From: Methylotenera sp. | GTDB taxonomy: Bacteria > Pseudomonadota > Gammaproteobacteria > Burkholderiales > Methylophilaceae | Assembly: GCA_023259635.1 (NCBI GenBank) | Contig: JALRGX010000114.1 | Coordinates: 1 to 40,758, forward strand | Direction of reading: 5' to 3' | DNA length: 40,758 nucleotides | Shown: positions 1,548 through 24,037 of the stretch, piece after piece | How the letters are laid out: each line of letters opens with the position of its first letter | How positions within the stretch are numbered: position 1 is the first letter of the stretch | Translations under genes and position numbers: made by a program | The notes under the pieces: generated by a model | The model's input: the letters and a program-made list of their open reading frames with translations, nothing else | Database searches by the model: none | Told to the model about the DNA's origin: nothing

Positions 1548-3899
1548 TTAAGTAACACAAACTTTATTGCGGCCTGTTTTTTTCGCTTCATACAATGCGG
1601 TGTCAGCCTGATGGAGCAACATATCAATGTTGACATTTTCATCATGAAGTGTGGTGACGCCCATAGAAACCGTGAAATGTATAGGCAGGCCAACAGGCAT
1701 AGTTACTTCGATCTTGGCGACAGCCTTACGTAAACGTTCGGCAACTTCAAGAGCTTCTTTACTCGGTGTTTCAGGCAAAACGACAGCAAACTCTTCACCA
1801 CCTATGCGACCAATCAAGTCAACTTGACGTAATGTATCTTGACAGACTTTACTGAGCACTTGCAGTACGGTGTCACCCACTTGGTGACCATAGGTATCGT
1901 TTACATTTTTGAAGAAATCAATATCCAGCATCAGTACAGATAGATGCCTTTTATAGCGTATTGCCCGTGATAACTCTGTTTCGCCTTGTTCAATAAAATG
2001 ACGGCGATTTGATAAACCTGTAAGGTAATCAAGATGCGCCTGTCTTGTAAGCTCGAATTCTAGTTCTTTACGATTTGTGATATTGGTCTGTATTCCAATC
2101 ATTCTTAAAGGCTGGTGATTCTCGTTCCACTCTGTGACACTGCCGATGGTATTAAACCAGACCCAACCACCGGCACTATTCTTCCGACGGTAATCTAAGC
2201 TTTTAGGGCCGCCATCTCTTAGGCATTCTTGCATTGCTTCACGAACGGCATTTATATCTTCTGGGTGCACATTTTCAAACCACTGTTGTAGATTGCTTTG
2301 AAAAGTAGCTGGGTCGTAGCCGAGCATCTGGGCGTATTCAGGGCTAACTAAAATATCCCCAGTAGCTATATTAAGGTCGAACCAGCTCTGATTGGCGGAA
2401 ATGATTGCGAGGCGCAGACGTTCTTCGTTTTCATAAAGTCTTTTTTCAATTTCTTTTCGTTCTGTGTAATCAGTATATGACCCGGTCATTCGAACGGCTT
2501 TACCTTCGGCATCTCGCTGTACAACTTTTGCGCGGTCTAATATCCATTTATAGTCACCACTCTTGGTGCGCATTCTATATACTAACTCATGGGCCGGACT
2601 GCGTCCTTCTAAAACATCACTAATTGATTTCCTGGCAATTTGTACGTCATCCGGATGCAAAAAGTCTGCCCATTGATTCGTGGTTTGTCCTATTTCCTCA
2701 TGGGTGTAACCAAGAATTTCTGCCCAAATATGATTGCGCTCCACCTTGCCGGAGGGTATGTCCCAATCCCAGTAACCAAGGTTGCTGCCCTCAAGTACTA
2801 AATTCAGTTGTTTTTCCTTATTAATAATTAACAATTCCGTTTGCTTGCGCTCGGTGATGTCTGTGAGTGTCGCCACATAATTGGTTGCGTTACCGGCCGC
2901 ATCCTTAACAACGGTAATGGTGAGCTGCTCTGGATAAACTTTACCGCTCTTATGCCTATTCCATATTTCACCTTCCCAGCCTCCTGTCTCGTTGATATTT
3001 TTCCACATGGCTGTATAGAAGGTTTTGTCATGTTCTTTTGACTTGAGCAGACGCGGCGTCTGTCCTAAGGCTTCTTCTGCGCTATAGCCAGTGATTCTGG
3101 TGAAAGCGTTATTCACACGCAAGATAGTGCTATTGATATCAGTAATAAACATACCTTGTTGAGATTCAAAAACCGTGGCGGCGATGCGAAGGTCGTAGTT
3201 TGCCTGATTGAGTGATGCGTCTCGTTGGTGTAATAGTTTCAACACCCGTAGCGCTGTTATCGTTCCTACAGTCAGCATGAAGAATGCAAATACCAATACT
3301 GCAAGCAGGAACTGGCTACGCATCGACTCAGCATTTACTTGTGCTTGCTTAACTATGCCCTCAGCTTTTTTTTCTGAAAAATTAACAATGTAGTTTATGC
3401 GCTGTTCCAGCGCTTCGTATACAGGCGCGAGTTTTGTCTCAAGGACGTGTGTTGCTTCATCATTACGTTCATTTATGATGAGTTTGAGAAATTCAGCATG
3501 GGTTTTATGCCAAAGTCTGACAAGTTCACGAACTTCTCGTACTTTACTCATATCACTAAGAAAATTTGCTTCTATTACGGACAGATTTTTGTCCAGCAAG
3601 GCTTCGTGCTGATTAAGTTCCTTTTGATAAGCCGTATGGTCTGAGCTTTTAGGGACTAGTGTGGCTGACAAGTTTTCAGCCTGAATCTTTATGATGGAAA
3701 ATCTGGCTTCACGTGCCGCAACATTGACCTGAAACGCATGTTGATAGAGAGCGCTTGTCTGAGCGGAAAGATGAGCGACTGTTTTATTGAGATGCCATTG
3801 AAGAAAAGCCAGCCCAATTAGCATAACGATAAGGCCAATGATGGTAATTTTTAGGATATGGCGATATGACTTTAAAAGTAACTTGAACGACATTGCCAT
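1548..3899 (-). CDS. Membrane-bound diguanylate cyclase with three PAS domains
   Basis: A 783-residue sensor enzyme that would make cyclic di-GMP from two GTP. The order is: transmembrane helix about 16-34, periplasmic helical sensor region about 35-190, second transmembrane helix about 192-216, three PAS/PAC units (about 235-350, 360-480, 490-610; each ends in a DITERK, DYTERK or NITNRK-type junction), then GGDEF about 615-783. The active-site motif is GGEEF at 700-704, a functional variant, and the inhibitory I-site RxxD is present as RQVD just upstream. No EAL domain follows. The start is ATG at 3899; a second ATG at 3893 is equally possible, with GAG six bases upstream. It is transcribed alone; neighbours do not reveal its signal. 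Confidence 0.9.
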   Translation of the reverse strand: MAMSFKLLLKSYRHILKITIIGLIVMLIGLAFLQWHLNKTVAHLSAQTSALYQHAFQVNVAAREARFSIIKIQAENLSATLVPKSSDHTAYQKELNQHEALLDKNLSVIEANFLSDMSKVREVRELVRLWHKTHAEFLKLIINERNDEATHVLETKLAPVYEALEQRINYIVNFSEKKAEGIVKQAQVNAESMRSQFLLAVLVFAFFMLTVGTITALRVLKLLHQRDASLNQANYDLRIAATVFESQQGMFITDINSTILRVNNAFTRITGYSAEEALGQTPRLLKSKEHDKTFYTAMWKNINETGGWEGEIWNRHKSGKVYPEQLTITVVKDAAGNATNYVATLTDITERKQTELLIINKEKQLNLVLEGSNLGYWDWDIPSGKVERNHIWAEILGYTHEEIGQTTNQWADFLHPDDVQIARKSISDVLEGRSPAHELVYRMRTKSGDYKWILDRAKVVQRDAEGKAVRMTGSYTDYTERKEIEKRLYENEERLRLAIISANQSWFDLNIATGDILVSPEYAQMLGYDPATFQSNLQQWFENVHPEDINAVREAMQECLRDGGPKSLDYRRKNSAGGWVWFNTIGSVTEWNENHQPLRMIGIQTNITNRKELEFELTRQAHLDYLTGLSNRRHFIEQGETELSRAIRYKRHLSVLMLDIDFFKNVNDTYGHQVGDTVLQVLSKVCQDTLRQVDLIGRIGGEEFAVVLPETPSKEALEVAERLRKAVAKIEVTMPVGLPIHFTVSMGVTTLHDENVNIDMLLHQADTALYEAKKTGRNKVCVT

Positions 3900-6205: not shown

Positions 6206-6844
6206 TTAAGCATCAAATTCTTCTTTGTAGTCGTCCGGGTTAATGCCGCACATTTTTAATGGTTCAATCAGGCGGTCGCGTTTGATTTTAGCGCTGGCTA
6301 GTATGTAACCGCGAATCACATGTTCACGCGTTACCGATGAGTGATCGTAGCCAGCAACTTCTTCAATAATTTTAGTGACTTTGCGCCTTGCCATAGAACG
6401 GAACAGGGCGGGGACATATTTAAGCAGTTCGTTAAACAGGTCCTCAGCGTCTTTGTGCCATTCACCTTGTTTAGGCAGTTCCGGTATAAAACCGTATTCA
6501 TCTTCACTTAATTCGCGCCATACCACTACTGAATTACCGTCAGGGTCAGCGACGTGTGCTTCTAGTTCCAGCGCCGGTGTGCGCTGCGCTTCATATAGTG
6601 CGCGGCCACCGGAATTCACCAGCCTGGTGAAGGCTGCCTGTACATCAGGAACGCTTACCCTTAAGGTGACGGGCCGTGATATTTTATTAACGTGAACAAG
6701 ACGTAAAATCACGTTACCTGAATCAAGGTCAATAAAACCCTCGCCGTGTTTAACCTTTTGTAAGCCGATTAATTTACCCCAGAACTCTTCTGAACGTGCC
6801 AGATCGCAAACCGGTACATCAACGTGCGTAACACCAAAAAACAT
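6206..6844 (-). CDS. VOC (glyoxalase-like) domain fused to a PCP_red-like domain
   Basis: A 212-residue, last-in-operon protein. Residues 1-112 form a vicinal-oxygen-chelate domain (FFGVTHVDVPVCDLARSEEF at the start; VADPDGNSVVVWREL at the end), with H7 and E111 in the places where this superfamily binds metal. Residues about 136-186 (LLKYVPALFRSMARRKVTKI followed by a VTREHV element) resemble the small PCP_red domain found at the end of the light-independent protochlorophyllide reductase B subunit and in some proteins outside photosynthesis. No chlorophyll genes are nearby, so a pigment role is not implied. It starts 11 bases after the flavoglobin gene stops and is probably translated from the same message. 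The reaction is unknown. Confidence 0.75.
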   Translation of the reverse strand: MFFGVTHVDVPVCDLARSEEFWGKLIGLQKVKHGEGFIDLDSGNVILRLVHVNKISRPVTLRVSVPDVQAAFTRLVNSGGRALYEAQRTPALELEAHVADPDGNSVVVWRELSEDEYGFIPELPKQGEWHKDAEDLFNELLKYVPALFRSMARRKVTKIIEEVAGYDHSSVTREHVIRGYILASAKIKRDRLIEPLKMCGINPDDYKEEFDA

Positions 6845-6855
6845 ATAAAAAACTC

Positions 6856-8469
6856 CTAAGCGCCAGTAGTTTCTGGCGGTATTTCGTGGTTATGTTGAGT
6901 GCTGCAATCTGAACAGTATATTTTACCGATGCGCACATGGTAGATAACTTTTTCTCCCGGCATAACTTCACGAGAGCAGCTATCACAGAGTGTGCCTACG
7001 TCCATGGTGATTTCATCAAAGCCTTCAAATGGTTTTTCGATCCCACCTACAAGGCGCGCAAATGGCTTGGCTTTTACAATATCCTGTCTGTAAAAGCCTT
7101 CCATTTTCATGAATCTGTCTATCATAGGCTCGGACAGGCCAACTTTACGCAGAGAGTCCACCATCAGGGATTCGCGATAATCGAACAGTTCGTCTGATAT
7201 CACCATCCAGTGATGTGAGTTGCGAGGCCTGTCGCCAAAGTAAACTTTTTCACCAGTCAGTATCTGGCGAACAAAGAGGTATTGCTTTTCAATTAATCGT
7301 TGCTTGGTGACGCCGATAAAAAATGATGAAAGCTTGTCATCTGCGTATACGGTCGTATAAAAATCTGTAAGTACTTCTGTTAACAGCTTGCCTTCTTGCA
7401 GTGCATTCCATAGCTCTGCATCTGGTGGTGGGTATTTGGTGCTATCCTCATCCTGTGGGGTAAGATTCTCATCACGTTTGCTACTGCGTAAGTCGCGTAG
7501 CGTAAAGGCATCGCTGTAGATGTCATGAGGCGCAGCGCCATGCCTTGCAGCAAGCAAGGTGCCGTTATCTACCATCTCGGCAAGGCCGGCAAGGTAAATG
7601 TTCCACTGATGTACATCGTGGTGTTGTGCAAAAGCAACTTCCTGTGCACGGCCAGCGTAGGTGCCTGCTGGTGGAGTAGGGTTGCTGGAAATACATTCGT
7701 AATAATGAAAGTTAGGGTGTGCCTGTTCCAGCTGTTTTAATTGCTCGTGTAAATAAAACCAGTCGGTGTTTCTGCCGCCGTGATAAAGATGGATCTGATT
7801 TTGATGTTTATGATGCAACGCATCGCGCACTATGCCTATCAGCGGCGCCAATCCGGTGCCGGTGCCAATCAATAACAGTGGCTGATCATTTGCGTTTTTT
7901 TGATAATAACAGTTACCTTCGGCATCCTGTATGTCGACGCTATCACCAGCCATGAGTTCATCGATGAGCCAGTTGCTCATAATGCCGCCATCCTGGCGTT
8001 GTACGTGTAGTTCCAGAAAATAATCTTCGGCGGGCAGGCTGGCAAGTGAATAGCTGCGTGTGATGCCATCCTGACGGCGTACGTTAATAAACTGACCAGC
8101 CTTGTAAGCAAAGTCTGTCGGCGGTTCCAGAAGTATTCTGCATACGTTTGAAGACAGCATTTCTTTGTTATGCACTAAAGTGGTCTGAAAAAGACCGGTG
8201 GGTGGGCCAATTTGCATGACACCCATGGGTACGCATTGGCAGGCCAGGAAAAAGCCTTCTTTAACGAGCTCCTGTGATAATCCTTTTTGTGCTACCGGTG
8301 GAATTTCACCTTGTTTGCATTGTTGAATACATACATGGCAGACACCGCTGCGGCAGGAGAATGGTATTTCGATGCCTTGGCGCAATAATGCGTCAAGGAT
8401 GTTTTCAGTTTCTCGTGAATGGATATCACGATTTTGATTGTCATTAATATGGTATTTTAGATAAGCCAT
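6856..8469 (-). CDS. Ferredoxin / FAD-NAD(P)H reductase / truncated globin / zinc-ribbon fusion
   Basis: A 537-residue fusion. Residues 1-90 are a plant-type 2Fe-2S ferredoxin with Cys39, Cys44, Cys47 and Cys77. Residues 95-325 are a ferredoxin-NADP reductase-like unit with the FAD motif RSYSLAS (138-144) and the NAD(P) motif GTGTGLAPL (202-210). Residues about 351-466 look like a truncated haemoglobin: FYTTVYADDKLSSFF fits the B helix with its Tyr, and SHHWMVISDELFDY fits the segment around the proximal His (H419 or H420). The end holds CxxC (495-498) and CxxC (519-522), a likely zinc ribbon. This would let NAD(P)H electrons reach a haem, as in flavohaemoglobins that detoxify NO, but with the globin at the C-terminal side and an added 2Fe-2S domain. 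Its substrate (NO, O2 or other) is inferred, not shown. Confidence 0.8.
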   Translation of the reverse strand: MAYLKYHINDNQNRDIHSRETENILDALLRQGIEIPFSCRSGVCHVCIQQCKQGEIPPVAQKGLSQELVKEGFFLACQCVPMGVMQIGPPTGLFQTTLVHNKEMLSSNVCRILLEPPTDFAYKAGQFINVRRQDGITRSYSLASLPAEDYFLELHVQRQDGGIMSNWLIDELMAGDSVDIQDAEGNCYYQKNANDQPLLLIGTGTGLAPLIGIVRDALHHKHQNQIHLYHGGRNTDWFYLHEQLKQLEQAHPNFHYYECISSNPTPPAGTYAGRAQEVAFAQHHDVHQWNIYLAGLAEMVDNGTLLAARHGAAPHDIYSDAFTLRDLRSSKRDENLTPQDEDSTKYPPPDAELWNALQEGKLLTEVLTDFYTTVYADDKLSSFFIGVTKQRLIEKQYLFVRQILTGEKVYFGDRPRNSHHWMVISDELFDYRESLMVDSLRKVGLSEPMIDRFMKMEGFYRQDIVKAKPFARLVGGIEKPFEGFDEITMDVGTLCDSCSREVMPGEKVIYHVRIGKIYCSDCSTQHNHEIPPETTGA

Positions 8470-8485
8470 AGTTATTCATCTGTGA

Positions 8486-8899
8486 TTACGCTTTTGCTGA
8501 ATGGCTTTCCAGAGTATCCAGTAATTTTCTAGCAAATTTTTTGGAATCCATGAAAATCATGCCAAGATTTTTACTAGGTTTGGCAGCGACAGCCAGAATG
8601 GTGTCTGGTCCGGCTTGTACCAATAGCATCACGCCTTGCTCGCCTTCAACCAGTACTAACTTTAAATTGCCTCGTTGTATCTCCTGCGCTGCACGATGGG
8701 CCAAAGCCAGCAGGGATGCACACATTGCGCCAAAGCGGTCAGGATCGACGCCATTCCCAAGCACTGCAGCAAGAGTGAAACCGTCGCTTGAAATACATGC
8801 AGATGCTTCAATATCAGCAGATGTGGAATTCAGTTCACGCAATACGGATCTTAGGGCGGATGTACGTGCTTCTTCCGGTGTTTTTTGAGCAATATGCAT
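8486..8899 (-). CDS. Roadblock/LC7 domain protein
   Basis: A 137-residue protein, nearly all one Roadblock/LC7 fold: an N-terminal helix (ALRSVLRELNSTSADIEAS), the strand pair ACISSDGFTLAAVL, a long helix (FGAMCASLLALAHRAAQEI) and the strands LKLVLVEGEQGVMLLVQAG and DTILAVAAK. Proteins of this family (for example MglB) bind small Ras-like GTPases and often act as their GTPase-activating partner. The GTPase encoded in the same operon is the obvious partner. It begins 78 bases after the preceding Roadblock-like gene, with a strong hairpin between them, and ends 16 bases before the flavoglobin gene. Confidence 0.88.
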   Translation of the reverse strand: MHIAQKTPEEARTSALRSVLRELNSTSADIEASACISSDGFTLAAVLGNGVDPDRFGAMCASLLALAHRAAQEIQRGNLKLVLVEGEQGVMLLVQAGPDTILAVAAKPSKNLGMIFMDSKKFARKLLDTLESHSAKA

Positions 8900-8929
8900 A
8901 ATAGATTCTCTAATAGATTTATTTGACGA

Positions 8930-8968
8930 AATACCCCTGCAGTAGCATATTGCTACTGCAGGGGTATT
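8930..8968 (-). promoter_or_regulatory. Perfect 18-bp intercistronic hairpin
   Basis: The arms 8930-8947 and 8951-8968 are perfectly complementary over 18 bases with a three-base loop. In the operon it lies after the stop of the 134-residue Roadblock-like gene and before the start of the 137-residue one. There is no T-run after the stem on the minus strand, so it is unlikely to be a simple full terminator; mRNA end protection, partial termination or processing are more likely. Confidence 0.75.
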
Positions 8969-8977
8969 GCTGCGCTA

Positions 8978-9382
8978 TTACAGTGCGGCTTCTACTAAAG
9001 GCATGTTGCTGCGTGATTTTGTCAGTACCATACCCAGGTTCGCTGATTTACGGCATACAAAGCAAGCAACTTGCTCTTCATTTTTACCGCGGATGAAAAC
9101 GTGGATCAGGTTATCACTGTTGATAATAATTTCCTGAAAGTAGTGATGGCCGTCATCTGAAAGACCGCGTGACTTCTTGAAGATACTTTCAATCATTTTA
9201 ACGTTTGGGCCTTGGAATAGATCTGCAGTAGCCGCTGCCAACAGTTCAACTACTTCTGTCGGTTGTGAATCCACAGATTTGATACCGAGCAGCATGCCGC
9301 TGGCAAGGTCGATATAGCCTGCAGCTAAACATTCAGGAATTGAAGCGGTTGCGGCTTGTAAAGCATCATTTAGTTTGGTCAT
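8978..9382 (-). CDS. Small Roadblock/LC7-like protein
   Basis: A 134-residue protein with the layout of a Roadblock fold but weak sequence match: helix LNDALQAATASIPECL, strands AGYIDLASGMLLGI, helix EVVELLAAATADLF, then the strand FQEIIINSDNLIHVFIRG. It also contains EEQVACFVCRKSANLGMVL; the C-terminal 'NLGM' segment parallels KNLGMIF in the next gene, suggesting the two are paralogues. It may be a second GTPase partner or a heterodimer subunit. The start has AAGGGG eight to nine bases upstream of ATG at 9382. The 112-base gap to the ABC-phosphatase gene is long for this operon and could carry a secondary promoter. Confidence 0.7.
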   Translation of the reverse strand: MTKLNDALQAATASIPECLAAGYIDLASGMLLGIKSVDSQPTEVVELLAAATADLFQGPNVKMIESIFKKSRGLSDDGHHYFQEIIINSDNLIHVFIRGKNEEQVACFVCRKSANLGMVLTKSRSNMPLVEAAL

Positions 9383-9494
9383 ATAAATTTCCCCTTTTAA
9401 TTAAATAATTGTTTTTTTGTGATAATTGAACTGCCTTTGCTACATTTCATAACTTTGCCTGGACGGGCAAGTGATGATTCTTTTTTGGAGCGCT

Positions 9495-10862
9495 TCAGAC
9501 GCTATGTGAAAACGCCTCCAGAAATTTGACTTGTGCTTCAGATTGCACCCAGCGTGGCTCAATCCTTCGCACATATTCCAAAGCATATAGTGATCCCATT
9601 CCTTCCCAGATCAAATGCGCTGCAAGTACAGTTCCTGTGCGGCCCAGGCCAGCCCTGCAGTGCACTGCAATAACTTCGCCTCGTGTAAGCAGGGTTTCAA
9701 TCTGCTTGCATATACGTATGCCTTGTTCAACGCTTGGCGCTTCCATGTCAGGAATGGGCTCCCAGACACTTTTGATTCCAAAAGGTTCGAGTTTTGCATT
9801 GTCCAGAGGTGTCTCTGTTAGTGTCAGCAACGTAGTAATTCCTACACGCTGTAAAGCCTTAAGGTCGTATTCCATATCGAAATAGACACCAGGTACAGGT
9901 GTGCCGGCAAGTTTTCCTTTTTTAAGCCATAGAAATCCACGCGGACCAGATTGGCTTTTGGTTTTTGCAAGTGCGGCTTTTGGCAAAGGTTTTGCTGGAA
10001 TAACCGATTCATCAAGATGCTCAGGTGGAGTGCCTGGGCTTGCGATATTGCAAGAGCCGGTACGCGCAAATTCACGTGCCGCATGTGAAATCGGGCTATC
10101 GAATATCTGTGGGATAGGTTGTTCTTCTTGAACATGGCCTCCGGCGATCAATATCGCGGTGCCTCCTAGGAGTCTTGCATGTTTCTGATTGTGCAAAACC
10201 ACGAGCAGGGCGCGTCGCGTTGCTTCTTCACGCAGATAAGCTAGCAGGCGTTCGCTTTCCAGATCATTTAGCCCCGTTGTTGGTTCATCGATGCATAACA
10301 GGTGCGGGTCGGAGACTACTTGACGTAAAATCGAAAGGTGTCGTTGTGATGCCAGGGGCAGGCTTACTACAGGTTCATCAAGTTTGTCACATAATTCATT
10401 CAGGTTTGCACGTGCTAATAAACGTTTTGCAAGCTCATATTGCATGGTCCGTGTCAGCTGATGACGTTCTGTAAGATTTACTACGATATTTTCTAATACA
10501 GAAGACATCATGAGTTGGGCGCTTTGAGCAACCAGGTCTGGTCGCTCTTTTTCGGCTAATACAGCACCACGATAGTAAGCATTACCCCATGTCCGAAAGG
10601 AGGGGCTGGCGTAGCTTAGTCCTGCCAGTGTACGTAATAACGTAGATTTTCCAGTGCCTGAAGGGCCTAGCAGTACAAATGCACCTTGCTCTGGAATACT
10701 TAATGAAATTTCGCTTAAAACTACTTTTTTGCCAAAAGCGACGCCAAAGTTATTGAGCTCCAGCAGCACACCGGAGGAAGATGTATCTTCTGAAACTTGC
10801 TGCCTTACTTGACTGGCAGGCGAATTCTTTAGGGGCTTAAGCATTGGAATTATTTTATTCAT
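9495..10862 (-). CDS. ABC-type ATPase fused to a dual-specificity (tyrosine-type) phosphatase
   Basis: A 455-residue fusion with no membrane segments. Residues about 31-270 form an ABC nucleotide-binding domain resembling import/phosphate-type ATPases: Walker A GPSGTGKST (66-74), Walker B LLCIDEPTTGL with E193, and H-loop His224. The signature normally reading LSGGQ is changed to LPLASQ (168-173). After a linker rich in Pro, Ala and Lys, residues about 305-455 form a cysteine phosphatase: the loop HCRAGLGRTG (401-410) supplies Cys402 and Arg408, and D372 (PIPDMEAP) is a likely general acid. This resembles DUSP23-type phosphatases. No permease gene is nearby, so transport is doubtful. It lies nine bases after the GTPase gene. 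The fusion suggests nucleotide-driven control of a phosphoprotein, which is inference. Confidence 0.85.
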   Translation of the reverse strand: MNKIIPMLKPLKNSPASQVRQQVSEDTSSSGVLLELNNFGVAFGKKVVLSEISLSIPEQGAFVLLGPSGTGKSTLLRTLAGLSYASPSFRTWGNAYYRGAVLAEKERPDLVAQSAQLMMSSVLENIVVNLTERHQLTRTMQYELAKRLLARANLNELCDKLDEPVVSLPLASQRHLSILRQVVSDPHLLCIDEPTTGLNDLESERLLAYLREEATRRALLVVLHNQKHARLLGGTAILIAGGHVQEEQPIPQIFDSPISHAAREFARTGSCNIASPGTPPEHLDESVIPAKPLPKAALAKTKSQSGPRGFLWLKKGKLAGTPVPGVYFDMEYDLKALQRVGITTLLTLTETPLDNAKLEPFGIKSVWEPIPDMEAPSVEQGIRICKQIETLLTRGEVIAVHCRAGLGRTGTVLAAHLIWEGMGSLYALEYVRRIEPRWVQSEAQVKFLEAFSHSV

Positions 10863-10871
10863 ATTAATTTG

Positions 10872-11414
10872 TTAGCGACTCGTGCTAGGGTCAAGCAGGG
10901 CGAGCAGGGCGAGCAGCATTTGTTTCACATCTTTGCGTTCACGCCCATCTACCTCGAAAACGGGGATGTTCAAGTTAAATGCAGCAATACGTTCGTAGAA
11001 TTTATCAAGCTGGCCTATTTGCGGGTTTAGTTCGGTACGTGTAATGCCGATCACAGCCATGCCATTGCATTTGGCAATTAATTTACTGAATGCGTTCAAA
11101 TAATGATCCAGATCTGCTATCGGATCCGGTCTGGCATTATCGATAAGAATAACAAACCCCATTGCATTTTCGCTGAGGATTTCCCACATGAAGTTGAAAC
11201 GGTCTTGTCCGGGAGTGCCATAAAGGTGCACTTTGGCTCCTCCCTCAAGATTAAGCACGCCATAGTCCATTGCTACCGTGGTGTTGGTTTTGCGTTGTGC
11301 AACTTCGTCTGATGCTTTCGCCTCTGTGCCCACTACCATGATGTCGCTGACTGAACTGATGGCTGTGGTTTTACCTGATCCAACCGGACCAGCAAATATG
11401 ATTTTATTTTCCAT
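10872..11414 (-). CDS. Ras/MglA-like small GTPase
   Basis: A 180-residue single-domain GTPase. G1 is GPVGSGKTT (9-17), the switch I Thr is in TTVAMDYG, and G3 is GTPGQDRF (66-73), the form used by bacterial Arf/Srp-like and MglA/CvnD-type GTPases. The guanine-recognition motif G4, usually NKxD or TKxD, reads TRTE here (125-128), which may change base specificity. It would switch between GTP and GDP forms and work with the two Roadblock proteins encoded downstream. Its start lies three bases after the stop of the upstream gene (spacer 11415-11417), so the two are probably translationally linked. Related GTPase-Roadblock pairs occur in Myxococcus (MglA/MglB) and Streptomyces conservons, but neither has this gene set. 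Confidence 0.88.
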   Translation of the reverse strand: MENKIIFAGPVGSGKTTAISSVSDIMVVGTEAKASDEVAQRKTNTTVAMDYGVLNLEGGAKVHLYGTPGQDRFNFMWEILSENAMGFVILIDNARPDPIADLDHYLNAFSKLIAKCNGMAVIGITRTELNPQIGQLDKFYERIAAFNLNIPVFEVDGRERKDVKQMLLALLALLDPSTSR

Positions 11415-11417
11415 TTG

Positions 11418-12074
11418 TTAGAGACTCGAAATTTTAGTGAACAGTGAATTCCACAGCCCAGATTTTTGTTTTTGCTCTGACTTTCCTTCTGCTGGTAAAG
11501 ATTCGGAATTTAGTAATGAAGGTCCATGGCTAACTGTTTTGACGATGCCGGCACTGTAAGCAGCGCTGATTATTCGATTAACCTCGTTTCTATCAATGCC
11601 AAGGACGCGTCGTACAAGCATGATAGATGTGGGGTGACGCGTAAGCAGTGCACAGATGCGTGCGGTATTTGCAGTGACTGGCAATCGGGTTAGATTCGGC
11701 CAGCGGATGAATTGAACTACATCATTTTCTGAGCAGTTTTCTATCAATTTATGATCATAAGCATAAAAGGCCAGTTGCCATAACAACTCTCGAATATCTT
11801 TGCCTGAGGCTGAATTTGATGTCGGTGTGAAGTTGCTTAAAGGTATGGTTTCAAAACTTGTTGACGGTGATGTGCTGAATTCGACAATATCCTGAATATT
11901 GGCGTGGTATTGTTGTCGCTGCGGGAGTATGGTGATTTCACCATGGCCGGGCAAAATAATCTGGGTGTCGATTTTTGAGTTAAGAATCTGCTTTATTGTG
12001 TTAAGTAGATGCGTAGCAGGCGCAAAAGCAGGAACTTCAGTGTCGCTGAACTTGCTGGATAATCCAGTTAACAT
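11418..12074 (-). CDS. Unknown protein with a C-terminal winged-helix-like segment; first gene of the GTPase operon
   Basis: I do not recognise this 218-residue protein. The N-terminal 90 residues are low in clear motifs. Residues about 92-170 are helical (DIRELLWQLAFYAYDHKLI), followed by TARICALLTRHPTSIMLVRR and a segment with GIDRNEVNRIISAAYSAGIV, which has the spacing of a helix-turn-helix or winged helix. The end (EGKSEQKQKSGLWNSLF) is charged and probably flexible. Its place just ahead of a small GTPase recalls the DUF742-type (CvnC) proteins of Streptomyces conservons, but similarity is not visible. Start: ATG at 12074. About 450 bases of leader separate it from the riboswitch upstream. 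Confidence 0.7.
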   Translation of the reverse strand: MLTGLSSKFSDTEVPAFAPATHLLNTIKQILNSKIDTQIILPGHGEITILPQRQQYHANIQDIVEFSTSPSTSFETIPLSNFTPTSNSASGKDIRELLWQLAFYAYDHKLIENCSENDVVQFIRWPNLTRLPVTANTARICALLTRHPTSIMLVRRVLGIDRNEVNRIISAAYSAGIVKTVSHGPSLLNSESLPAEGKSEQKQKSGLWNSLFTKISSL

Positions 12075-12459
12075 AGTTTATTAAAATTCTTTGATTGATA
12101 ATGGCAACTGAATAGTTATGGTTATGCTTACCACTTACTTTAAAGTTGTTATTGCAATGCAATTATCAATTTCCAGAAATTTCCCCTTGTGTATTAAAAA
12201 ATGAGGTCATTCACATTTAATGCCCGGAAATGTCTACGCAATTTTCATTCCATAAAGAATGTTTGTAAGTATGTTTATGATTCTTATGGAAAATATGCTG
12301 GCAATTTTTTATTTTTATTCTAACAACGTTCCATATCGCCTGTCTAATGGCGAATATTCAGACACTGATGTTAAATTTTTAACAATTGCAAACACATGAA
12401 TTTAATACTGCATCGGATAGGTAAAACAAAAGCGACAGTCGTAGAAATTCCTAAGACCT

Positions 12460-12467
12460 GCAAAGTT
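12460..12467 (-). promoter_or_regulatory. Possible riboswitch expression-platform strand
   Basis: On the minus strand this reads AACTTTGC, the perfect complement of GCAAAGTT in the core of the aptamer (12564-12571). Pairing the two would break the aptamer, so this may be an alternative structure that couples ligand binding to expression. No clean T-run follows, so the mechanism is open. Confidence 0.4.
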
Positions 12468-12519
12468 CCAAGCTGGGGGAGTGTGAGTAAAACTGCTGGA
12501 GTAATCCTGTGCAATTCTA

Positions 12520-12602
12520 TTTAGCAATTCCGCTGCCATAGAGCCTGCGCTCCTTAGACCGGTAACTTTGCGCCCCAAACTTTCGGATGGTTTGCCCTAT
12601 TT
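12520..12602 (-). promoter_or_regulatory. Class I cyclic-di-GMP riboswitch (GEMM-I) aptamer
   Basis: Read on the minus strand, the sequence shows the conserved blocks in order: GGGCAAACC (12589-12597), a hairpin with a GAAA tetraloop, GGGGCGCAAAG, ACCGGTCTAAG, a GAGC/GCTC stem with loop, TATGGC, and then GCGG. The TCTAAG...TATGG pair is the 11-nucleotide receptor that docks the GAAA tetraloop in this class. The tetraloop stem has two central mismatches compared with the Vc2 aptamer. The element points toward the GTPase operon and lies between the LuxR-type regulator gene and the operon. Whether c-di-GMP turns it on or off cannot be read directly. Confidence 0.9.
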
Positions 12603-12648
12603 TGTTTTAAAAACCTAACGCAATTTTAAATATATTGCATAGCATCTA

Positions 12649-12689
12649 ATTTTATTTATAAATCATATATATAAATTTAGATGTCAGCG
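12649..12689. repeat. Long AT-rich inverted repeat
   Basis: CATCTAATTTTATTTATA pairs with TATATAAATTTAGATG across a short loop, with one or two mismatches. It lies between the regulator's stop codon and the riboswitch. It could end the regulator transcript or be a protein-binding site; there is no T-run to decide. Confidence 0.5.
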
Positions 12690-12881
12690 ATGCTACTTAG
12701 GGTTTTTGTTTATGTCAATCACTTTTTTTGTGAAGTGTGGTTAAGCGTATTTAGTAAGATATTGCGATGCGGAGCGGCAGATATTGTGAATATGCAGTCC
12801 ATTTTTCTAATTGGATGATGAAGGAGTCAGCGTATTTAAAATTATTAATTTTCAATCAATGTTTATTTTAAAAACAATAAC

Positions 12882-13583
12882 TTAATATATATTTCCCTTG
12901 TTATCAGATGTTTTGTTTGCCAGCAATGCCAATTGCAAACGATCGTGAACTTTTAATTTCTGGAATATGACTGACAAGTGTGCTTTTACAGTGCGATCTG
13001 CAATATCGAGCTTACTAGCGATAATTTTATTGCTATTGCCACTTGCAACCAATTCTACAATTTCGCGTTCACGCGGGGTTAAAGAAGCTAATTTTTCTAG
13101 GTTCTGGTCAGGTTTATTTTTCGTTGATCTTTTTGAGGTCAAATTTTCGAGGTGTTTTAAACGTTGTAATAAAAGTGGTAAGCCTGCACTGGATATCCAA
13201 ACGCCGCCGTCTTGTACAGTAGTGAAAATTTGGCGAATCTTATCCGGTAACAAATTGGACCTGCAGCTACCAGCCGCACCGGCAGCTAGCGCTGATAATT
13301 CATCTTCAGTTGACAGATCGATGGCTATTACCAGTATTTTCAGATTCTGATTAATGCGTTTTAAATCGGTGATGTGGTGCATATCGGAAAAACCATCAAC
13401 CCCAATATCTATCAGTGCCAGCCCTGCGCCTGACGTTTTAGCCCGCCATAGCAAATCAGTAAAATCAGATAACAATAATGATTCGCCGTGCGCTAGCAAA
13501 GTATTCCAATACAAGTCAATCAAAACAGGATTTTTGCTAACCAGAAAATTCATTGTCATCTCATTTTTTTTATGTTTATTCAA
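12882..13583 (-). CDS. LuxR/NarL-family transcription regulator with a degenerate receiver domain
   Basis: A 233-residue regulator. Residues about 10-130 are receiver-like and residues about 165-230 are a LuxR helix-turn-helix (LTPREREIVELVASGNSNKI and RTVKAHLSVIFQKL). In the receiver the aspartate of LALIDIG is kept, but the acidic pair that binds Mg is replaced by SKN (FLVSKNPVLI) and the usual Lys region reads GSCRSN. Phosphorylation is therefore doubtful. The biofilm regulators CsgD and VpsT share this design; the VpsT c-di-GMP-binding W[FLM][TS]R motif is not evident here. The gene lies between the riboswitch-led operon and the Lap operon, divergent from the latter, and may control either. 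Confidence 0.85.
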   Translation of the reverse strand: MNKHKKNEMTMNFLVSKNPVLIDLYWNTLLAHGESLLLSDFTDLLWRAKTSGAGLALIDIGVDGFSDMHHITDLKRINQNLKILVIAIDLSTEDELSALAAGAAGSCRSNLLPDKIRQIFTTVQDGGVWISSAGLPLLLQRLKHLENLTSKRSTKNKPDQNLEKLASLTPREREIVELVASGNSNKIIASKLDIADRTVKAHLSVIFQKLKVHDRLQLALLANKTSDNKGNIY

Positions 13584-14153: not shown

Positions 14154-16325
14154 ATGGGTGACAATGCAACAAAACAAGGTGTTTGGGATATTCCAAAAGA
14201 TGCATTACTTCCTGATGATCCATTGACTAATTGTCTGGTATTGCTGACCAGGTACCAGCATCGTCCGTTTTCAGCACAAACTTTGGTTGCTGGGCTACCT
14301 CTTGAATCATCAAGGCTTACACCGGAACTTTTCCCCCGGGCCGCTGCACGTGCTGGCTTGAGTGCTCGAGTCATCAAGCGGCCACTCGAGAAAATTGCAG
14401 ATATTACTTTGCCGGTTGTATTGCTGCTTGAGGGTGGTGGGGCAACTATCTTATTACAAAACGCTAAAGATGGGTTGGTCCGCCTGCTTAGTCCGGACGC
14501 AGGAGCTGCGGATATTGAGGTGCCGTTGGAGGAAATTGAAGTGCAGTATACCGGCTTTGCTATCTTCGTTAAATCCGCCTTTCAATTCGATAGCCGTTCG
14601 GATATCAGTTTTATTCCGCGTCCGTCAAACTGGTTCTGGGATACCGTAAAGCAGGCTTGGCCGATATACAGTGAAGTATTGGCAGCATCCTTGCTGATTA
14701 ATATTTTTGCGCTCGCCATCCCTTTGTTTACGATGAATGTCTATGACCGGGTTGTTCCTAATCAGACATTTGGAACACTTTGGGTTTTAGTGGCCGGTGT
14801 TGCTACGGTATATATTTTTGATTTTGTAATGCGTACTTTACGCGGCTATTTTATTGATATTGCAGGCAAAAAAATCGATATTATTTTATCTGCAAATATT
14901 TTCGAGAAAATCCAGGCTATCCGTATGGAAGCACGTCCCCAGTCTGTGGGAGCAATTGCCAGCAGTGTGCAGGAATTTGAATCATTTCGGGAGTTTATAA
15001 CCTCTGCAACAATTACCGCATTGGTTGATCTGCCATTTTTAGTATTGTTTTTATTAATCATATGGTGGCTGGGCGGTCTTGCTGTTGTGCCTATCCTGGT
15101 TGCCATTCCTTTAATACTGCTGGTTTCATTCCTGGTTCAGCGGTCTTTGGCGGTGGTGATTGGTGAGTCTTTCCGCACAGCATCTCAACGGCAGGCCACT
15201 TTGATTGAAACGCTGACAGGGCTTGAAACAATCAAGGCGATTGGTGCAGAAGGCCCCATGCAGCGTAGATGGGAGCAGCACATTGGCCATCTGGGTAAGC
15301 TGAGTCTGAAAGCACGTGTACTCTCGTTATTGGCAACAAATTCAGCAGCGTTTTTCCAGGCAATGGCAACAGTGAGTGTCATTGTCGTTGGTGTGTATTT
15401 GATTTCTGAGAAAGAAATGACGATGGGGGCGCTGGTTGCATGTACATTACTTACCGGACGTGCGCTTGCGCCACTTGCGCAGATTGCGTCGCTATTGACG
15501 CGCTTTCATCATGCCAAGGCAGCACTGGATGGCATTAACCGCATGATGGCACTTCCGGTAGAACGCGAACCAGGCAAGAGTTTTGTCAACCGTCAGTCAT
15601 TCGCGGGAGATGTGGAATTTAAAAACGTTAGTTTCAATTATCCTGGTCAACAGGTAAAAGCTTTGCAAAATGTGTCTTTTCATATTCGAGCTGGAGAGCG
15701 TGTCGGTATTCTGGGGCGTATTGGCTCAGGAAAAACCACTATTGAAAAACTCATATTAGGGCTTTACCAGCCAGCGGAAGGTTCGGTGTGGATTGATGGT
15801 ATAGATATCAGGCAGATAGATCCGGCAGAGTTGCGTAAAAATATCGGTTACGTGCCGGATGAGCCTTTATTATTTTTTGGTACGGTAAAAGACAATATTG
15901 TGCTAGGTGCCCCTTATGTGGATGATCTTGCCGTGCTTCGTGCCGCAGAAATATCTTGTGCATCTGAATTTATCAATCGCCATCCGCAAGGCTTTGATAT
16001 GCCGATCGGTGAACGCGGACTTGGATTGTCTAGCGGTCAAAAGCAGTCAGTAGCCATTGCGCGAGGATTATTGCTTGATCCGCCGATTTTATTATTTGAT
16101 GACCCCAGTAATTCTCTTGATAACCGCAGTGAAGATAACCTTAAAGTCAAACTGGCAGAGCACACTGAGGGGAAAACCCTGGTATTGATTACACATCGTG
16201 CTTCTATGCTTACTTTGGTTGACCGCCTATTGGTTATTGATAATGGACGTGTAGTAGCAGATGGCCCGAAAGAGCAGATATTGAAAGCATTGTCAGGAGG
16301 TGGCTTAAATGTCACAAAAAGCTGA
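14154..16325 (+). CDS. lapB: LapB-like type I secretion ABC permease/ATPase with altered ATPase motifs
   Basis: A 723-residue inner-membrane exporter of adhesins: N-terminal C39-peptidase-like domain without the catalytic pair (about 1-140), membrane domain with six helices (about 170-450), and ATPase domain (about 480-715). Walker A is GRIGSGKT (521-528) and the H-loop is ITHRAS. Three normally conserved points differ: the Q-loop glutamine is Asp (VPDEP, D569), the signature is LSSGQ (625-629) rather than LSGGQ, and the catalytic Glu after Walker B is Asp (FDDPS, D649-D650). ATP hydrolysis may be slow. It pairs with the LapC-like adaptor, whose start overlaps its end, and with the TolC-like channel at 22643. 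Confidence 0.88.
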   Translation: MGDNATKQGVWDIPKDALLPDDPLTNCLVLLTRYQHRPFSAQTLVAGLPLESSRLTPELFPRAAARAGLSARVIKRPLEKIADITLPVVLLLEGGGATILLQNAKDGLVRLLSPDAGAADIEVPLEEIEVQYTGFAIFVKSAFQFDSRSDISFIPRPSNWFWDTVKQAWPIYSEVLAASLLINIFALAIPLFTMNVYDRVVPNQTFGTLWVLVAGVATVYIFDFVMRTLRGYFIDIAGKKIDIILSANIFEKIQAIRMEARPQSVGAIASSVQEFESFREFITSATITALVDLPFLVLFLLIIWWLGGLAVVPILVAIPLILLVSFLVQRSLAVVIGESFRTASQRQATLIETLTGLETIKAIGAEGPMQRRWEQHIGHLGKLSLKARVLSLLATNSAAFFQAMATVSVIVVGVYLISEKEMTMGALVACTLLTGRALAPLAQIASLLTRFHHAKAALDGINRMMALPVEREPGKSFVNRQSFAGDVEFKNVSFNYPGQQVKALQNVSFHIRAGERVGILGRIGSGKTTIEKLILGLYQPAEGSVWIDGIDIRQIDPAELRKNIGYVPDEPLLFFGTVKDNIVLGAPYVDDLAVLRAAEISCASEFINRHPQGFDMPIGERGLGLSSGQKQSVAIARGLLLDPPILLFDDPSNSLDNRSEDNLKVKLAEHTEGKTLVLITHRASMLTLVDRLLVIDNGRVVADGPKEQILKALSGGGLNVTKS

Positions 16326-17688
16326 TTCAAGTACAAGAGGTCGTTTGTCGAAAAAACCTCAGATGGTCAGTAGGGATGATATTGACTTATTGTCAGACAG
16401 TAATGCAGCACTGTTTGAGGTGCCGCCGCATCTGGGTTCAATGATTATTCGCGGTTTTTTTGTATTTATTTTTGTTTTTTTTGTTTGGGCCTATTTTGCT
16501 GAAATTGATGAAATTACTGTGGGGGAGGGCAAGGTTATCCCGTCAAGCCAGATACAGGTGATTCAGAATCTGGAGGGAGGTATTGTTGCTTCTATCCCGG
16601 TAAAGGTGGGAGACCTTGTGAGTAAAGACCAAATTATCATGCAACTTGATCCTACGCGCTTTTCTTCATCCATGGGCGAGACGCAGGCAAAGCATGACTC
16701 ATTATTGGCCAAGGTTGCACGACTGGAGGCTGAAGCCACAGGCCAGCCATTCCAGGCGCCTGCAGAGCTACTCAAAAGTAATCCGCAGCTGGTCAATGAA
16801 GAGAGAACGCTTATGGTAACCCGCCAGCAGGAGCTGGATACCGCAATGCAAGTGCTGCGTCAGCAGGCAGAACAGCGCACCCAGGAGTTAAGTGAGAAGA
16901 AAGCCAGGTACCAGCAATTGCAGGAAAGCCACGATCTTGTGAGCCAAGAACTCAAGATCAGCAAACCGATGGCGGCGCAAGGCGTGATGTCCGCAGTTGA
17001 GATTTTGCGTCTGGAACGCCAGTTAAGTGATGTAAAAGGGCAGATGGATGCGGCTCGTTTGGCTATCCCCCGCCTGGAACAGGCTGCGGCTGAAGCGCGG
17101 TCTAAAATTACGGCTTCAGTTGCTAAATTCAGGTCTGACGCTGCAGCCGATTTAAACCTGGCGCGAGCTGAATTGGCAAGCACGAGTGCTGTCAGCATGG
17201 CTGCAGAAGATCGTTTGGCACGTACAGCAGTGCGTTCTCCTGTTGCCGGGATTGTAAAACAGTTAAAAGTGACCACGGTTGGCGGCGTTATCCAGCCTGG
17301 TATGGAAGTTATGGAAATCGTCCCTTTGGAGGACACCTTGTTAGTTGAAACTAAAATCAGGCCTTCAGATATTGGTTTTATTAAACCTGGTCAGGATGCT
17401 ACTGTTAAAATTACCGCCTATGATTTTTCTATATATGGCGGGCTGGAAGCGAAGGTTGAGAATATTACGGCTGACACCATTACTACAGAAAAAGGTGATA
17501 AGACCGAGAGCTTCTATGTTGTACGTGTGCGTACCAAGTCTGCAAAATTTACCGGCAGTACAAAGAACCTCCCGATCATGCCTGGTATGGTTGCATCTGT
17601 ACATATCCGTACTGGTAAAAAAACAATCTTAAACTACTTGCTGAAACCCATTATCAAAGCAAGGTATGAGGCGATGCGGGAGAGGTAG
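16309..17688 (+). CDS. lapC: LapC-like HlyD-family membrane fusion protein
   Basis: A 459-residue type I secretion adaptor. It has a cytoplasmic N-terminus, one transmembrane helix about 43-64 (IIRGFFVFIFVFFVWAYFAE), a lipoyl-like half motif (GEGKVIPSSQIQVIQNLEGG), a long coiled coil about 130-290 (repeats of QQ and EL), the second half motif RSPVAGIVKQLKV, and a C-terminal beta domain. It spans the periplasm between the LapB-like ABC protein and the outer-membrane channel. Its ATG lies 17 bases inside the lapB end, with AGGAGG upstream, so the two genes are translationally coupled. Confidence 0.92.
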   Translation: MSQKADSSTRGRLSKKPQMVSRDDIDLLSDSNAALFEVPPHLGSMIIRGFFVFIFVFFVWAYFAEIDEITVGEGKVIPSSQIQVIQNLEGGIVASIPVKVGDLVSKDQIIMQLDPTRFSSSMGETQAKHDSLLAKVARLEAEATGQPFQAPAELLKSNPQLVNEERTLMVTRQQELDTAMQVLRQQAEQRTQELSEKKARYQQLQESHDLVSQELKISKPMAAQGVMSAVEILRLERQLSDVKGQMDAARLAIPRLEQAAAEARSKITASVAKFRSDAAADLNLARAELASTSAVSMAAEDRLARTAVRSPVAGIVKQLKVTTVGGVIQPGMEVMEIVPLEDTLLVETKIRPSDIGFIKPGQDATVKITAYDFSIYGGLEAKVENITADTITTEKGDKTESFYVVRVRTKSAKFTGSTKNLPIMPGMVASVHIRTGKKTILNYLLKPIIKARYEAMRER

Positions 17689-17726
17689 TTTTGTAAGGTT
17701 TATATATTTTTAAACCCTTAAAATAT

Positions 17727-18659
17727 TCAACTGCTGCGTATGATGATCGGCGATGGTTTTGTCAGCCCTTCATCATAAGGGTGTGATTGCTGCCGGTATA
17801 GCTTAAGCACACGTTGCACATATTTTTTTGTTTCCGGATATGGCGGAACACCTTGATATCTATCGACAGCTTTTTCACCAGAGTTGTAGGCAGCGGCAGC
17901 AAATGCAACATTGCCCCGGTAATAAGATAGTAACCACCGCAAATACTTGATTCCACCTTTAATATTTTGTGCGGCATCAAAGGCATTCTGGATATTGAAT
18001 CTATCCGCCGTACCTGGAATCAATTGCATCAATCCCATGGCATTTTTAGGGGATTGGGCTTTAACTTCAAAATTAGACTCAACTGCAATGATTGCCAGCA
18101 CAAGTTTCGGGTCAATTTGATGCCGGGCAGCAATCGTATCAACCAGATCAATAATCCATCGTTTAGTATCAGGTAAAATTGCAAGTCGCCGTTCCATCTC
18201 CATCGTGGTGCTCGGCTCTTGGATTTCTGCAATTACTGGCCTTTCAGGTAGTGCCTCGCTGATAACACAAGGCGGCAGTTCAGATGATGCCAAGTTAATG
18301 GTGTCTAGCATATTAAGCGCTTCCATATGACCTTGACTGCTTGCCTGTGAAAAAAGTGCGGTAGCAAATGCCTGGTTTTCAGGTACGCCTTTGCCAAACC
18401 TGTACAGCATACCTAGGCGATATTGTGCCTCTATGCTGCCAAATTTTGATGCTTGGCAATAATTGGCCGCAGCTTGCCACTCTGCATCCGGGTTGTCAGG
18501 CATTTGTTCGTAATTTCTGGCAGCCGATAATATGGCTTGAATTTTAGGTAGCTCAAGTTTTTCTTGTGCATTAGTGCTTGTATCAGCAAAAGAAATGCTT
18601 ATCCCTAAAGCCCAAATAGAGACGCATCCCATACAAGTAAAAAAGATACGGTATCTCAT
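17727..18659 (-). CDS. Periplasmic lytic transglycosylase with a Sel1-like repeat
   Basis: A 310-residue exported protein. A signal peptide ends near SISFA (24). Residues about 60-120 contain a Sel1/TPR-like repeat pair (SIEAQYRLGMLYRFGKGVPE), and residues about 165-290 are a Slt/MltE-type lytic transglycosylase domain. The catalytic Glu is E194 in AIIAVESNFE, with the supporting motifs NAMGLMQLIPGTA and AAAYNSGE. Such enzymes cut peptidoglycan, here possibly to let the secretion channel pass through the wall. It is on the opposite strand, between lapC and the adhesin gene. Confidence 0.92.
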   Translation of the reverse strand: MRYRIFFTCMGCVSIWALGISISFADTSTNAQEKLELPKIQAILSAARNYEQMPDNPDAEWQAAANYCQASKFGSIEAQYRLGMLYRFGKGVPENQAFATALFSQASSQGHMEALNMLDTINLASSELPPCVISEALPERPVIAEIQEPSTTMEMERRLAILPDTKRWIIDLVDTIAARHQIDPKLVLAIIAVESNFEVKAQSPKNAMGLMQLIPGTADRFNIQNAFDAAQNIKGGIKYLRWLLSYYRGNVAFAAAAYNSGEKAVDRYQGVPPYPETKKYVQRVLKLYRQQSHPYDEGLTKPSPIIIRSS

Positions 18660-18732
18660 AGATTCGCTCTCCTTACGTTATACAAAGCTTACGCCCGAAA
18701 AACTATTTTTAAAATAGCATAAAACGAAATGT

Positions 18733-18754
18733 AAAAGTTAACCGTAACTTTTTT
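18733..18754 (+). terminator. Rho-independent terminator-like hairpin
   Basis: AAAAGTTA (18733-18740) pairs perfectly with TAACTTTT (18745-18752) across the loop ACCG, followed by more T. The stem is AT-rich and so modest in strength. It faces plus-strand transcription that could come from lapBC. Confidence 0.5.
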
Positions 18755-18778
18755 GTAGATTAGTAAGCCGCTTAATTG

Positions 18779-18811
18779 ATTCCATGTGTCAAATATTCAT
18801 GGAATATTTTT
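18779..18811 (+). terminator. Second rho-independent terminator-like hairpin
   Basis: ATTCCATG (18779-18786) pairs with CATGGAAT (18798-18805), then ATTTTTT follows. With the hairpin 26 bases upstream it forms a tandem pair ahead of the adhesin gene, which may stop read-through from lapBC. Confidence 0.6.
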
Positions 18812-18996
18812 TCTTAATCTATTGTTTATAAATGTTTTTTAATTTTATTCGTTGTGGTGTTGTTATGCTGTCGCATGCGGGACCGCACCTAGTACCAAGG
18901 TACTATATAAGTTGTAAAAGTTGTGTTCTAACATCATCAAAAATCGTGAATATATTTTCATAATTAATTTGATTGTGCAGTTTAAAGGAGTTCATC

Positions 18997-22371: not shown

Positions 22372-22401
22372 TGACTGATTGTAGGTATCAATGTTTAGGA
22401 T

Positions 22402-22429
22402 ATCAGGTGCTTTCAGGCACCTGATTTTT
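22402..22429 (+). terminator. Rho-independent terminator of the adhesin gene
   Basis: ATCAGGTGC (22402-22410) pairs with GCACCTGAT (22417-22425) across a six-base loop, followed by TTTT. It lies 30 bases after the adhesin stop. Confidence 0.9.
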
Positions 22430-23962: not shown

Positions 23963-24037
23963 TAGTTTCGTGTGGATGATAAAGCGTGTGAATATTAATA
24001 GTCATGCAAAAAGGTCACACTTGCTAAACTAACTTTA

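Follow-up and report, generated by a model that had tools for sequence, protein, structure and literature searches.

A stretch of 40,758 nucleotides from Methylotenera sp. (contig JALRGX010000114.1 of assembly GCA_023259635.1, here called the window) was found to carry a cluster of seven genes preceded by a riboswitch aptamer for cyclic diguanylate (c-di-GMP). The window is contig C10 of a 159-contig, 2.2-Mb genome that is 92% complete. An initial annotation, made from the sequence alone, had presented the cluster as an undescribed operon joining a small GTPase and Roadblock proteins to redox fusion proteins under c-di-GMP control, and this interpretation was borne out in part: the seven-gene cluster with its aptamer is real, and the cluster recurs in bacteria, in several lineages behind such an aptamer. 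The seven open reading frames (ORFs) are uninterrupted and lie together on the minus strand, as annotated, spanning 12074-6206 with intergenic gaps, in operon order, of 3, 9, 112, 78, 16 and 11 nucleotides (nt). The riboswitch was likewise recovered ahead of them on the same strand, as a full-length c-di-GMP-I (GEMM-I) aptamer at 12520..12606 (Rfam RF01051, 74.5 bits; gathering threshold 35), which ends 445 nt ahead of the first start codon, leaving a leader at 12075..12519.

In operon order, the genes encode a winged-helix-like protein of 218 amino acids (WH; 11418..12074), an MglA-family small GTPase (10872..11414), a fusion of an ABC-type ATPase with a DSP/PTP phosphatase (ABC-DSP; 9495..10862), a protein with a predicted Roadblock fold (RB1; 8978..9382), a Roadblock/LC7 protein (RB2; 8486..8899), a fusion of a 2Fe-2S ferredoxin, an FAD/NAD reductase, a truncated-type globin and a four-Cys ribbon (6856..8469), and a VOC (glyoxalase-fold) protein with a DUF2621/PCP_red part (VOC-PCP; 6206..6844). 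Pfam agreed with the domains first assigned to the ABC-phosphatase (ABC_tran and DSP/PTP), to RB2 (Robl_LC7) and to the ferredoxin-reductase-globin protein (Fer2, FAD_binding_6, NAD_binding_1 and Bac_globin). The proposed VOC-PCP_red fusion stood as far as its glyoxalase and DUF2621 matches, both above cut-off, while PCP_red itself, which overlaps DUF2621, scored below. Among the NCBIfam matches listed, none of the seven proteins exceeded a curated cut-off, and five of the operon proteins had no match in PHROGs.

The GTPase matched Pfam PF03029 above cut-off, and its motifs read GPVGSGKTT (G1), TT (G2), GTPGQ (G3), TRTE (G4) and DGR (G5). Across 27 aligned GTPases, GxxxxGKT, TT45-46 of G2, PGQ68-70 of G3 and D156 with R158 of G5 were invariant; G3 was GAPGQ in some relatives, and the G4 Lys missing from the window protein was present, as TK, in some. 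A G3 of GTPGQ, a Thr replacing the G2 arginine, a G4 without the Lys of [NT]KxD and a D-A-R-like G5 are the signatures of the Group 3 MglA systems defined in 2014 by Wuichet and Sogaard-Andersen (PMC4316618), and the motifs fit Group 3, and in part Group 2, MglA. In the parts of that paper drawn on here, Group 3 systems consist of MglA, one or two MglBs that carry a DG pair, and a third protein, of unknown function, whose N-part is receiver-like and whose C-part is a winged helix; they are placed almost only in beta- and gammaproteobacteria. RB2, which matched PF03259 and resembles MglB in sequence, carries the pair as D39-G40, invariant in 35 aligned sequences. The nearest named relatives in a GTPase tree were metagenome-assembled genomes (MAGs) of Nitrosomonadales and Gallionella.

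No Pfam family was found above cut-off for the WH protein. The C-terminal part of its AlphaFold2 model (pLDDT 86.5) runs helix-helix-helix-strand, as a winged helix does, and the alignment agrees. Its N-terminal part is short for the receiver-like part of a Group 3 partner; several relatives reach 365-384 amino acids and others fall to 124. Foldseek returned no match at E<=0.001, the best of the weak ones being chains of eukaryotic FAM91A1 and SEA/GATOR1 (E 0.018 and up). The winged helices of these proteins are protein-protein modules, and the likeness is a curious parallel to the eukaryotic Rag-GTPase machinery on which nothing here leans.

To judge from their sequences, the GTPase, the WH protein and RB2 fit a kind already described, the Group 3 MglA system, and for these three genes the label 'undescribed' did not hold; for ABC-DSP with RB1 no description was found. 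The likeness extends to the GTPase motifs, the putative winged-helix partner, the DG-pair MglB-like protein and the hosts, but ABC-DSP, the globin, VOC-PCP and the riboswitch go unmentioned in the parts of PMC4316618 used here, and the WH protein of the window is short. The MglA/MglB pair of Myxococcus and Thermus (Group 1) shares the GTPase family, the predicted fold of RB1 and the sequence of RB2; a Group 1 identity was ruled out, since TVPGQ and the intrinsic G2 arginine finger are missing from the window GTPase. The Streptomyces conservons (CvnA-D, Group 2) similarly combine a Roadblock protein, a small protein and a GTPase with GTPGQ in one operon, but the window operon has an ABC-phosphatase and a globin instead of a histidine kinase or DUF742 protein. 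CvnC of the conservons is DUF742, and a conservon identity was ruled out by partners as well as motifs: none of the seven proteins had a Pfam match to the CvnA histidine kinase or DUF742.

The second part of the operon is formed by ABC-DSP and RB1. The ABC part showed the Walker A pattern in 67 of 74 aligned sequences, a conserved DEP (Walker B) and an H-loop-like HNQ, while the ABC transporter signature LSGGQ was found in one of the 74 and is replaced in the window by LPLASQR. The top NCBIfam score of this part was to PstB, below cut-off; PstB-type ATPases share Walker A, Walker B and the H-loop-like HNQ, but the window protein lacks LSGGQ, has no membrane partner gene in the operon and is fused to a phosphatase. 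The phosphatase loop reads HCRAGLGRTG, and the HCX5R loop and the general-acid Asp, as expected of DSP/PTP enzymes, were invariant in 25 chosen sequences. HCxxGxGRT was present in 77 of 83 rows, the six misses being five ABC pieces and one protein with QCC for HC.

RB1 found nothing in a Pfam search and nothing below E 0.07 in a phmmer search of Protein Data Bank sequences, so the fold was assigned by structure. Its AlphaFold model (pLDDT 89) gave a best Foldseek E of 2.8e-07, the top matches being 3kye and MglB of Thermus and Myxococcus, with a query TM of up to 0.73 among the matches listed (MglB within an MglA complex). The model thus predicts a Roadblock fold for RB1, as the initial annotation had supposed. 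Profile comparison with RB2 was weak (hhalign 42.8% over 29 columns) and, unlike RB2, RB1 has no invariant DG pair among its conserved columns. We found no prior description of an ABC-DSP fusion beside a Roadblock protein of its own. Among the open-access papers listed, none joins these parts in its title or the beginning of its abstract; this coverage took in no subscription papers and does not show absence from print.

In the redox part, H85, W87 and the four Cys of the C-terminal ribbon were invariant in 23 aligned globins, and the globin is likely to bind oxygen or nitric oxide (NO) on this sequence evidence. The flavohaemoglobin Hmp also has a globin and an FAD/NAD reductase on one chain, but the window fusion has an N-terminal 2Fe-2S domain and a C-terminal truncated-type globin, and the reductase is optional in relatives: Marinobacter L133 and Acinetobacter junii L140 keep ferredoxin and globin without it, and Thiohalophilus (L085) retains the globin alone. 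The one published precedent found for globin-to-Roadblock signalling, itself a proposal, is HGbRL of Methylacidiphilum, a globin-Roadblock/LC7 fusion (PMC4476040). It resembles the operon in joining a globin to a Roadblock domain but is one fused protein with another globin class, and ABC-phosphatase and riboswitch are unmentioned in the parts of that paper used. Sensing or detoxification of a gas or redox signal by the operon, as first suggested, is plausible from its domains. In a deltaproteobacterial MAG (L163), globin and VOC-PCP were observed together at 11872-12699 on the minus strand, opposite to the strand of ABC-DSP-RB1.

A perfect 18-bp hairpin lies between RB1 and RB2 (8930..8968, minus strand); the 71-nt stretch that holds it folds at -37.9 kcal/mol (z -8.2). 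Stems of at least 9 bp followed RB1 in 14 of 80 relatives, against 0/41 after WH, 0/43 after the GTPase, 0/72 after DSP, 4/48 after RB2 and 0/27 after the globin, controls that differ in that the other genes often have coding sequence directly after them. In 24 of the 80, the stretch after RB1 was matched by at most 2% of shuffles. The long hairpins of the relatives are unrelated in sequence; some of the operons that bear them close with RB1, and others continue with further genes. The hairpin is a possible attenuator or mRNA-end element and may set the ratio of RB1 to the downstream products; because so strong a hairpin lies inside the operon, a single uninterrupted transcript is uncertain.

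A lack of conserved gene order, which the initial annotation had named as refuting it, was not observed. Conservation was most complete in a second species of the genus (genome G204, locus L082), where the aptamer is followed by all seven genes in unchanged order at 59-96% identity; large parts of the set were found in other families and orders. DNA synteny in this congener runs on from the operon into the neighbouring exporter genes of a Lap-type adhesion system. Within the family, the GTPase was found in 3 of 120 genomes, the window's own included. Across the order, 19 of 200 genomes had a related GTPase, again counting its own, and two of the others pair it with ABC-DSP-RB1: G058 (L030), and G163 (L215), where a more distant GTPase stands about 2-3 kb after RB1. 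Twelve other loci chosen by the GTPase within the order and family were profiled; eleven had WH, GTPase and RB2, and L038 had WH and GTPase. In L039, RB2 lies on the other strand from WH and GTPase. Two of the twelve that were annotated, L032 and L037, have an added TPR protein beside WH-GTPase, L037 also having an extra Roadblock-like protein under the Pfam cut-off.

When named genomes were searched with RB1, 156 relatives were found; the best 80 were used and represent 78 distinct loci, many of them in related Comamonadaceae. The hosts include Gallionella, Comamonas, Delftia, Polaromonas, Marinobacter, Acinetobacter and Thiohalophilus, and the operon order recurs across Beta- and Gammaproteobacteria. 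Counts were restricted to 61 loci in which RB1 is preceded by at least 4.5 kb and followed by at least 5.5 kb (17 of the 78, with short flanks, were dropped). They were made as profile hits on stop-to-stop frames, since in GC-rich loci greedy ORF calling had assigned genes wrongly. The 61 all had RB1, 60 had DSP and 59 had ABC; L091 lacked both ABC and DSP, and L154 lacked ABC. The GTPase was found in 35 of these loci, WH in 34 and RB2 in 32. Because RB1 had been the bait of this search, a second was baited by the phosphatase: 7 of 300 genomes of the order, the window's own included, matched at E<=1e-20, six with ABC-DSP adjoining RB1 and the seventh with a weaker phosphatase and neither.

GTPase and RB2 occurred together in 31 of the 61 loci; 4 had the GTPase only, 1 had RB2 only and 25 had neither, an association for which a Fisher p is not to be taken literally, the loci being related. 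The four GTPase-only loci (L094, L098, L099 and L105) form one well-supported clade, and the sole locus with RB2 and no GTPase is L154, which is without ABC too. Thirty genomes with a GTPase-less locus, hand-picked for having no GTPase nearby and some of them with the locus on a short contig, were searched for MglA-like proteins: 20 have one elsewhere and 10 none at E<=0.001, so that RB1 and ABC-DSP can apparently do without the GTPase. Among relatives chosen by RB1, then, RB1 goes with ABC-DSP rather than with the GTPase, and RB2 goes with the GTPase.

The composition varies around this pattern. Marinobacter isolates have the GTPase, ABC-DSP, both Roadblock genes and a ferredoxin-globin gene, and Comamonas and Delftia the ABC-DSP-RB1 core. 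In Acinetobacter junii (L140), ABC and phosphatase are separate adjoining ORFs, followed by RB1, ferredoxin-globin and another Roadblock gene, while RB1 stands before the ABC part in L152, L158, L160, L161 and L143. Two Nitrosomonadales loci, L087 and L088, carry RB1 twice in tandem.

The window aptamer is the only RF01051 match found in its genome. Aptamers were located ahead of the operon in the window, L082, L087, L088, L095 and L085/L151, and in four genomes (the window's, G204, G436/Thiohalophilus and that of L095) the sole RF01051 match found sits at the operon. L037 has an aptamer ahead of a Group 3 operon without ABC-DSP, which runs, over L037:7869-13550, from the aptamer through PilZ, an ODP-type protein, TPR, WH, GTPase and a Roadblock-like protein to RB2. 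A GTPase tree of 58 rows requires the aptamer label to be gained or lost 5 times, and well-supported branches force at least 4 of these changes; a count as low as this arose in 8 of 500 shuffles of the label. On inspection, the leaders of the window, L082, L095, L085 and L037 held no terminator-like element, and those of L087 and L088 held weak ones; promoter-like sites were no more frequent than chance (16 against 15.5 expected). The recurrent aptamers support a c-di-GMP link for the operon at the level of sequence, as first annotated, although the aptamer is a minority feature among the relatives and no general rule.

Roadblock, GTPase and globin genes also come together outside these classes. 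In a phylum-wide sample, an RB1-like protein was found at E<=1e-5 in 36 of 398 genomes, 28 of them in one family of another class (f238), where these proteins are divergent (45-75 bits). Nine f238 loci were fetched; 7 have the GTPase and 3 the globin. One of them, L205:3074-12835, encodes an ABC1-type atypical kinase, a double globin, Roadblock proteins, RB1, a calcineurin-type phosphatase and the GTPase, together with a protein whose DUF2621 match falls below cut-off and whose PCP profile match is weak; an unassigned protein occupies the WH position. The matches for globin, VOC-PCP, Roadblocks and GTPase are repeated in L197, the two genomes having estimated contamination of 8% (L205) and 3% (L197). 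Recurrence of Roadblock, GTPase, globin and phosphatase with other enzymes in the slots points to function rather than chance.

The operon adjoins the Lap-type adhesion system, which at 14154-26793 on the plus strand comprises a type I exporter, HlyD-type genes, an outer-membrane channel, a LapG-like protease and a LapD-like receptor. Within it, an ORF of 1132 amino acids (18973-22371, plus strand) has no Pfam match and could be the Lap adhesin, and a GGDEF-EAL gene follows at 26797-29892. On the other side of the operon lies a PAS-rich diguanylate cyclase (1548-3899, minus strand) with three PAS_3 stretches and a GGDEF domain. By raw count, GGDEF genes lie in 22 of the 78 RB1-chosen loci, many of these being closely related Comamonadaceae. 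A LuxR/NarL-type regulator upstream of the aptamer (12882..13583, minus strand) is syntenic only in G204 among the profiled loci, and its membership of the operon is uncertain.

The interpretation of these data that we prefer, at even odds, is that the cluster works as a signalling operon composed of three modules: a switch with two nucleoside triphosphatases (NTPases), gated by c-di-GMP and informed by the globin. The first module would be a Group 3 MglA G-protein system, with its winged-helix partner, the GTPase and RB2 as MglB-type regulator. The second would combine an ABC ATPase without LSGGQ, and hence without half of a composite ATP site, with an intact phosphatase and its own Roadblock protein. 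In the third, NAD(P)H, FAD and the 2Fe-2S centre would feed the globin, with VOC-PCP as accessory. Production of the operon would be set by c-di-GMP through the riboswitch leader; the globin, by O2 or NO binding or by NO turnover, would be the likely input; RB1 would control the ATPase-phosphatase, and RB2 would do so for the GTPase. In attached cells rich in c-di-GMP, the output would most likely be a surface behaviour, either adhesion or type IV pili, given the MglA kinship, the PilZ and TPR variants, the TPR protein SgmX as an effector of Myxococcus MglA, and the Lap neighbour. The sequence shows the genes, motifs, predicted folds, synteny and recurrent aptamer; how the parts interact, which ligand is bound, in which direction the riboswitch acts and what the output is are our inference. 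A bolder version is more tentative and falls short of an even chance: that RB1 was recruited to control the LSGGQ-less ABC ATPase-phosphatase and not a Ras-like GTPase, the two Roadblock-controlled NTPases forming a cascade that combines c-di-GMP, via RNA, with the haem and Fe-S redox state. The RB1-like proteins that occur without ABC-DSP lower its probability somewhat.

Several observations weigh against the composite switch. The locus is patchy, as the GTPase was found in 1 of 14 other listed genomes of the genus as well as in the 3 of 120 in the family, and most related GTPases in the order do not lie beside ABC-DSP. Of the 61 fully flanked loci, 23 have the globin, 22 have ferredoxin/reductase and 2 have VOC-PCP; the redox module is therefore optional, and the seven genes first proposed as a unit are a conserved cluster that is modular, with VOC-PCP a rare partner. 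ABC-DSP lay beside the RB1-like protein in none of the nine f238 loci, which weakens the claim that RB1 serves only ABC-DSP. The aptamer was found at 4 of the 78 RB1-chosen loci (L087, L088, L095 and L151), and any RF01051 match in 11 of 76 genomes searched (9/49 and 2/27), at the operon in 4 and elsewhere in 7; these absences come from whole-genome scans in which only some of the first-look candidates were scored, together with scans made directly at 16 of the 78 loci and at L084 and L085 (of the L105 and L151 genomes). Direct scans of the Gallionella loci L086 and L089 gave no aptamer, and no clear expression platform was recognised in the leaders. The proposed surface output, finally, draws on neighbours and on analogy through MglA kinship.

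A type IV pilus or polarity switch like MglA-MglB, in which the GTPase would place or activate pili while ABC-DSP and the globin tune it to energy and O2, is a doubtful alternative with several points in its favour. The MglA kinship speaks for it, as do the PilZ gene directly after the aptamer of L037 and the TPR protein beside WH-GTPase in L032 and L037, which recalls the use of the TPR protein SgmX for pili by MglA-GTP of Myxococcus in the portion of PMC7519303 drawn on. However, no known pilus gene is among the seven, the window's form of the operon showed neither the TPR nor the PilZ gene, and the Group 1 catalytic features are lacking.

It is unlikely, from the sequence evidence, that the operon serves for NO or O2 detoxification, with the fusion a flavohaemoglobin-like NO dioxygenase whose synthesis or location is tuned by the other genes. 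The reductase part does score with the NO-inducible flavohaemoprotein of NCBIfam, at 77.8 bits, far below the cut-off of 432; the globin residues are conserved and some hosts have low-O2 habitats. The constant core, however, is ABC-DSP with RB1 and not the globin, and the reductase-less L133 and L140 and the globin-only Thiohalophilus locus fit sensing or single-electron chemistry better than turnover.

Transcription control, with the WH protein binding DNA as the output of the GTPase, appears distinctly improbable. A DNA-binding output was proposed for Group 3 from a Phyre2 fold match (PMC4316618, in the part used), and the C-terminal order of elements in the alignment and model agrees with it, but DNA-binding winged helices matched the WH model only at E near 1 or worse, behind the weak FAM91A1 and SEA/GATOR1 matches. 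A fortuitous assembly of unrelated same-strand units is very hard to credit: the 112- and 78-nt gaps, the internal hairpin and the separate occurrence of the modules would allow it, but Beta- and Gammaproteobacteria share the gene order, and in L163 VOC-PCP and globin are again found together near ABC-DSP-RB1.

What the composite operon adds to the described Group 3 systems is the ABC-DSP-RB1 core, the redox module and the riboswitch. In the part of the literature examined, Group 3 MglA systems have been described by bioinformatics only, and the cluster gives them concrete candidate inputs, c-di-GMP by the riboswitch and O2 or NO by the globin, and adds a second NTPase with a Roadblock protein of its own. 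It would extend Roadblock regulation past Ras-like GTPases in bacteria and, by way of RNA, would link their small G proteins with c-di-GMP. With Marinobacter, Comamonas and Delftia among the carriers, these proposals are testable in culturable environmental bacteria.

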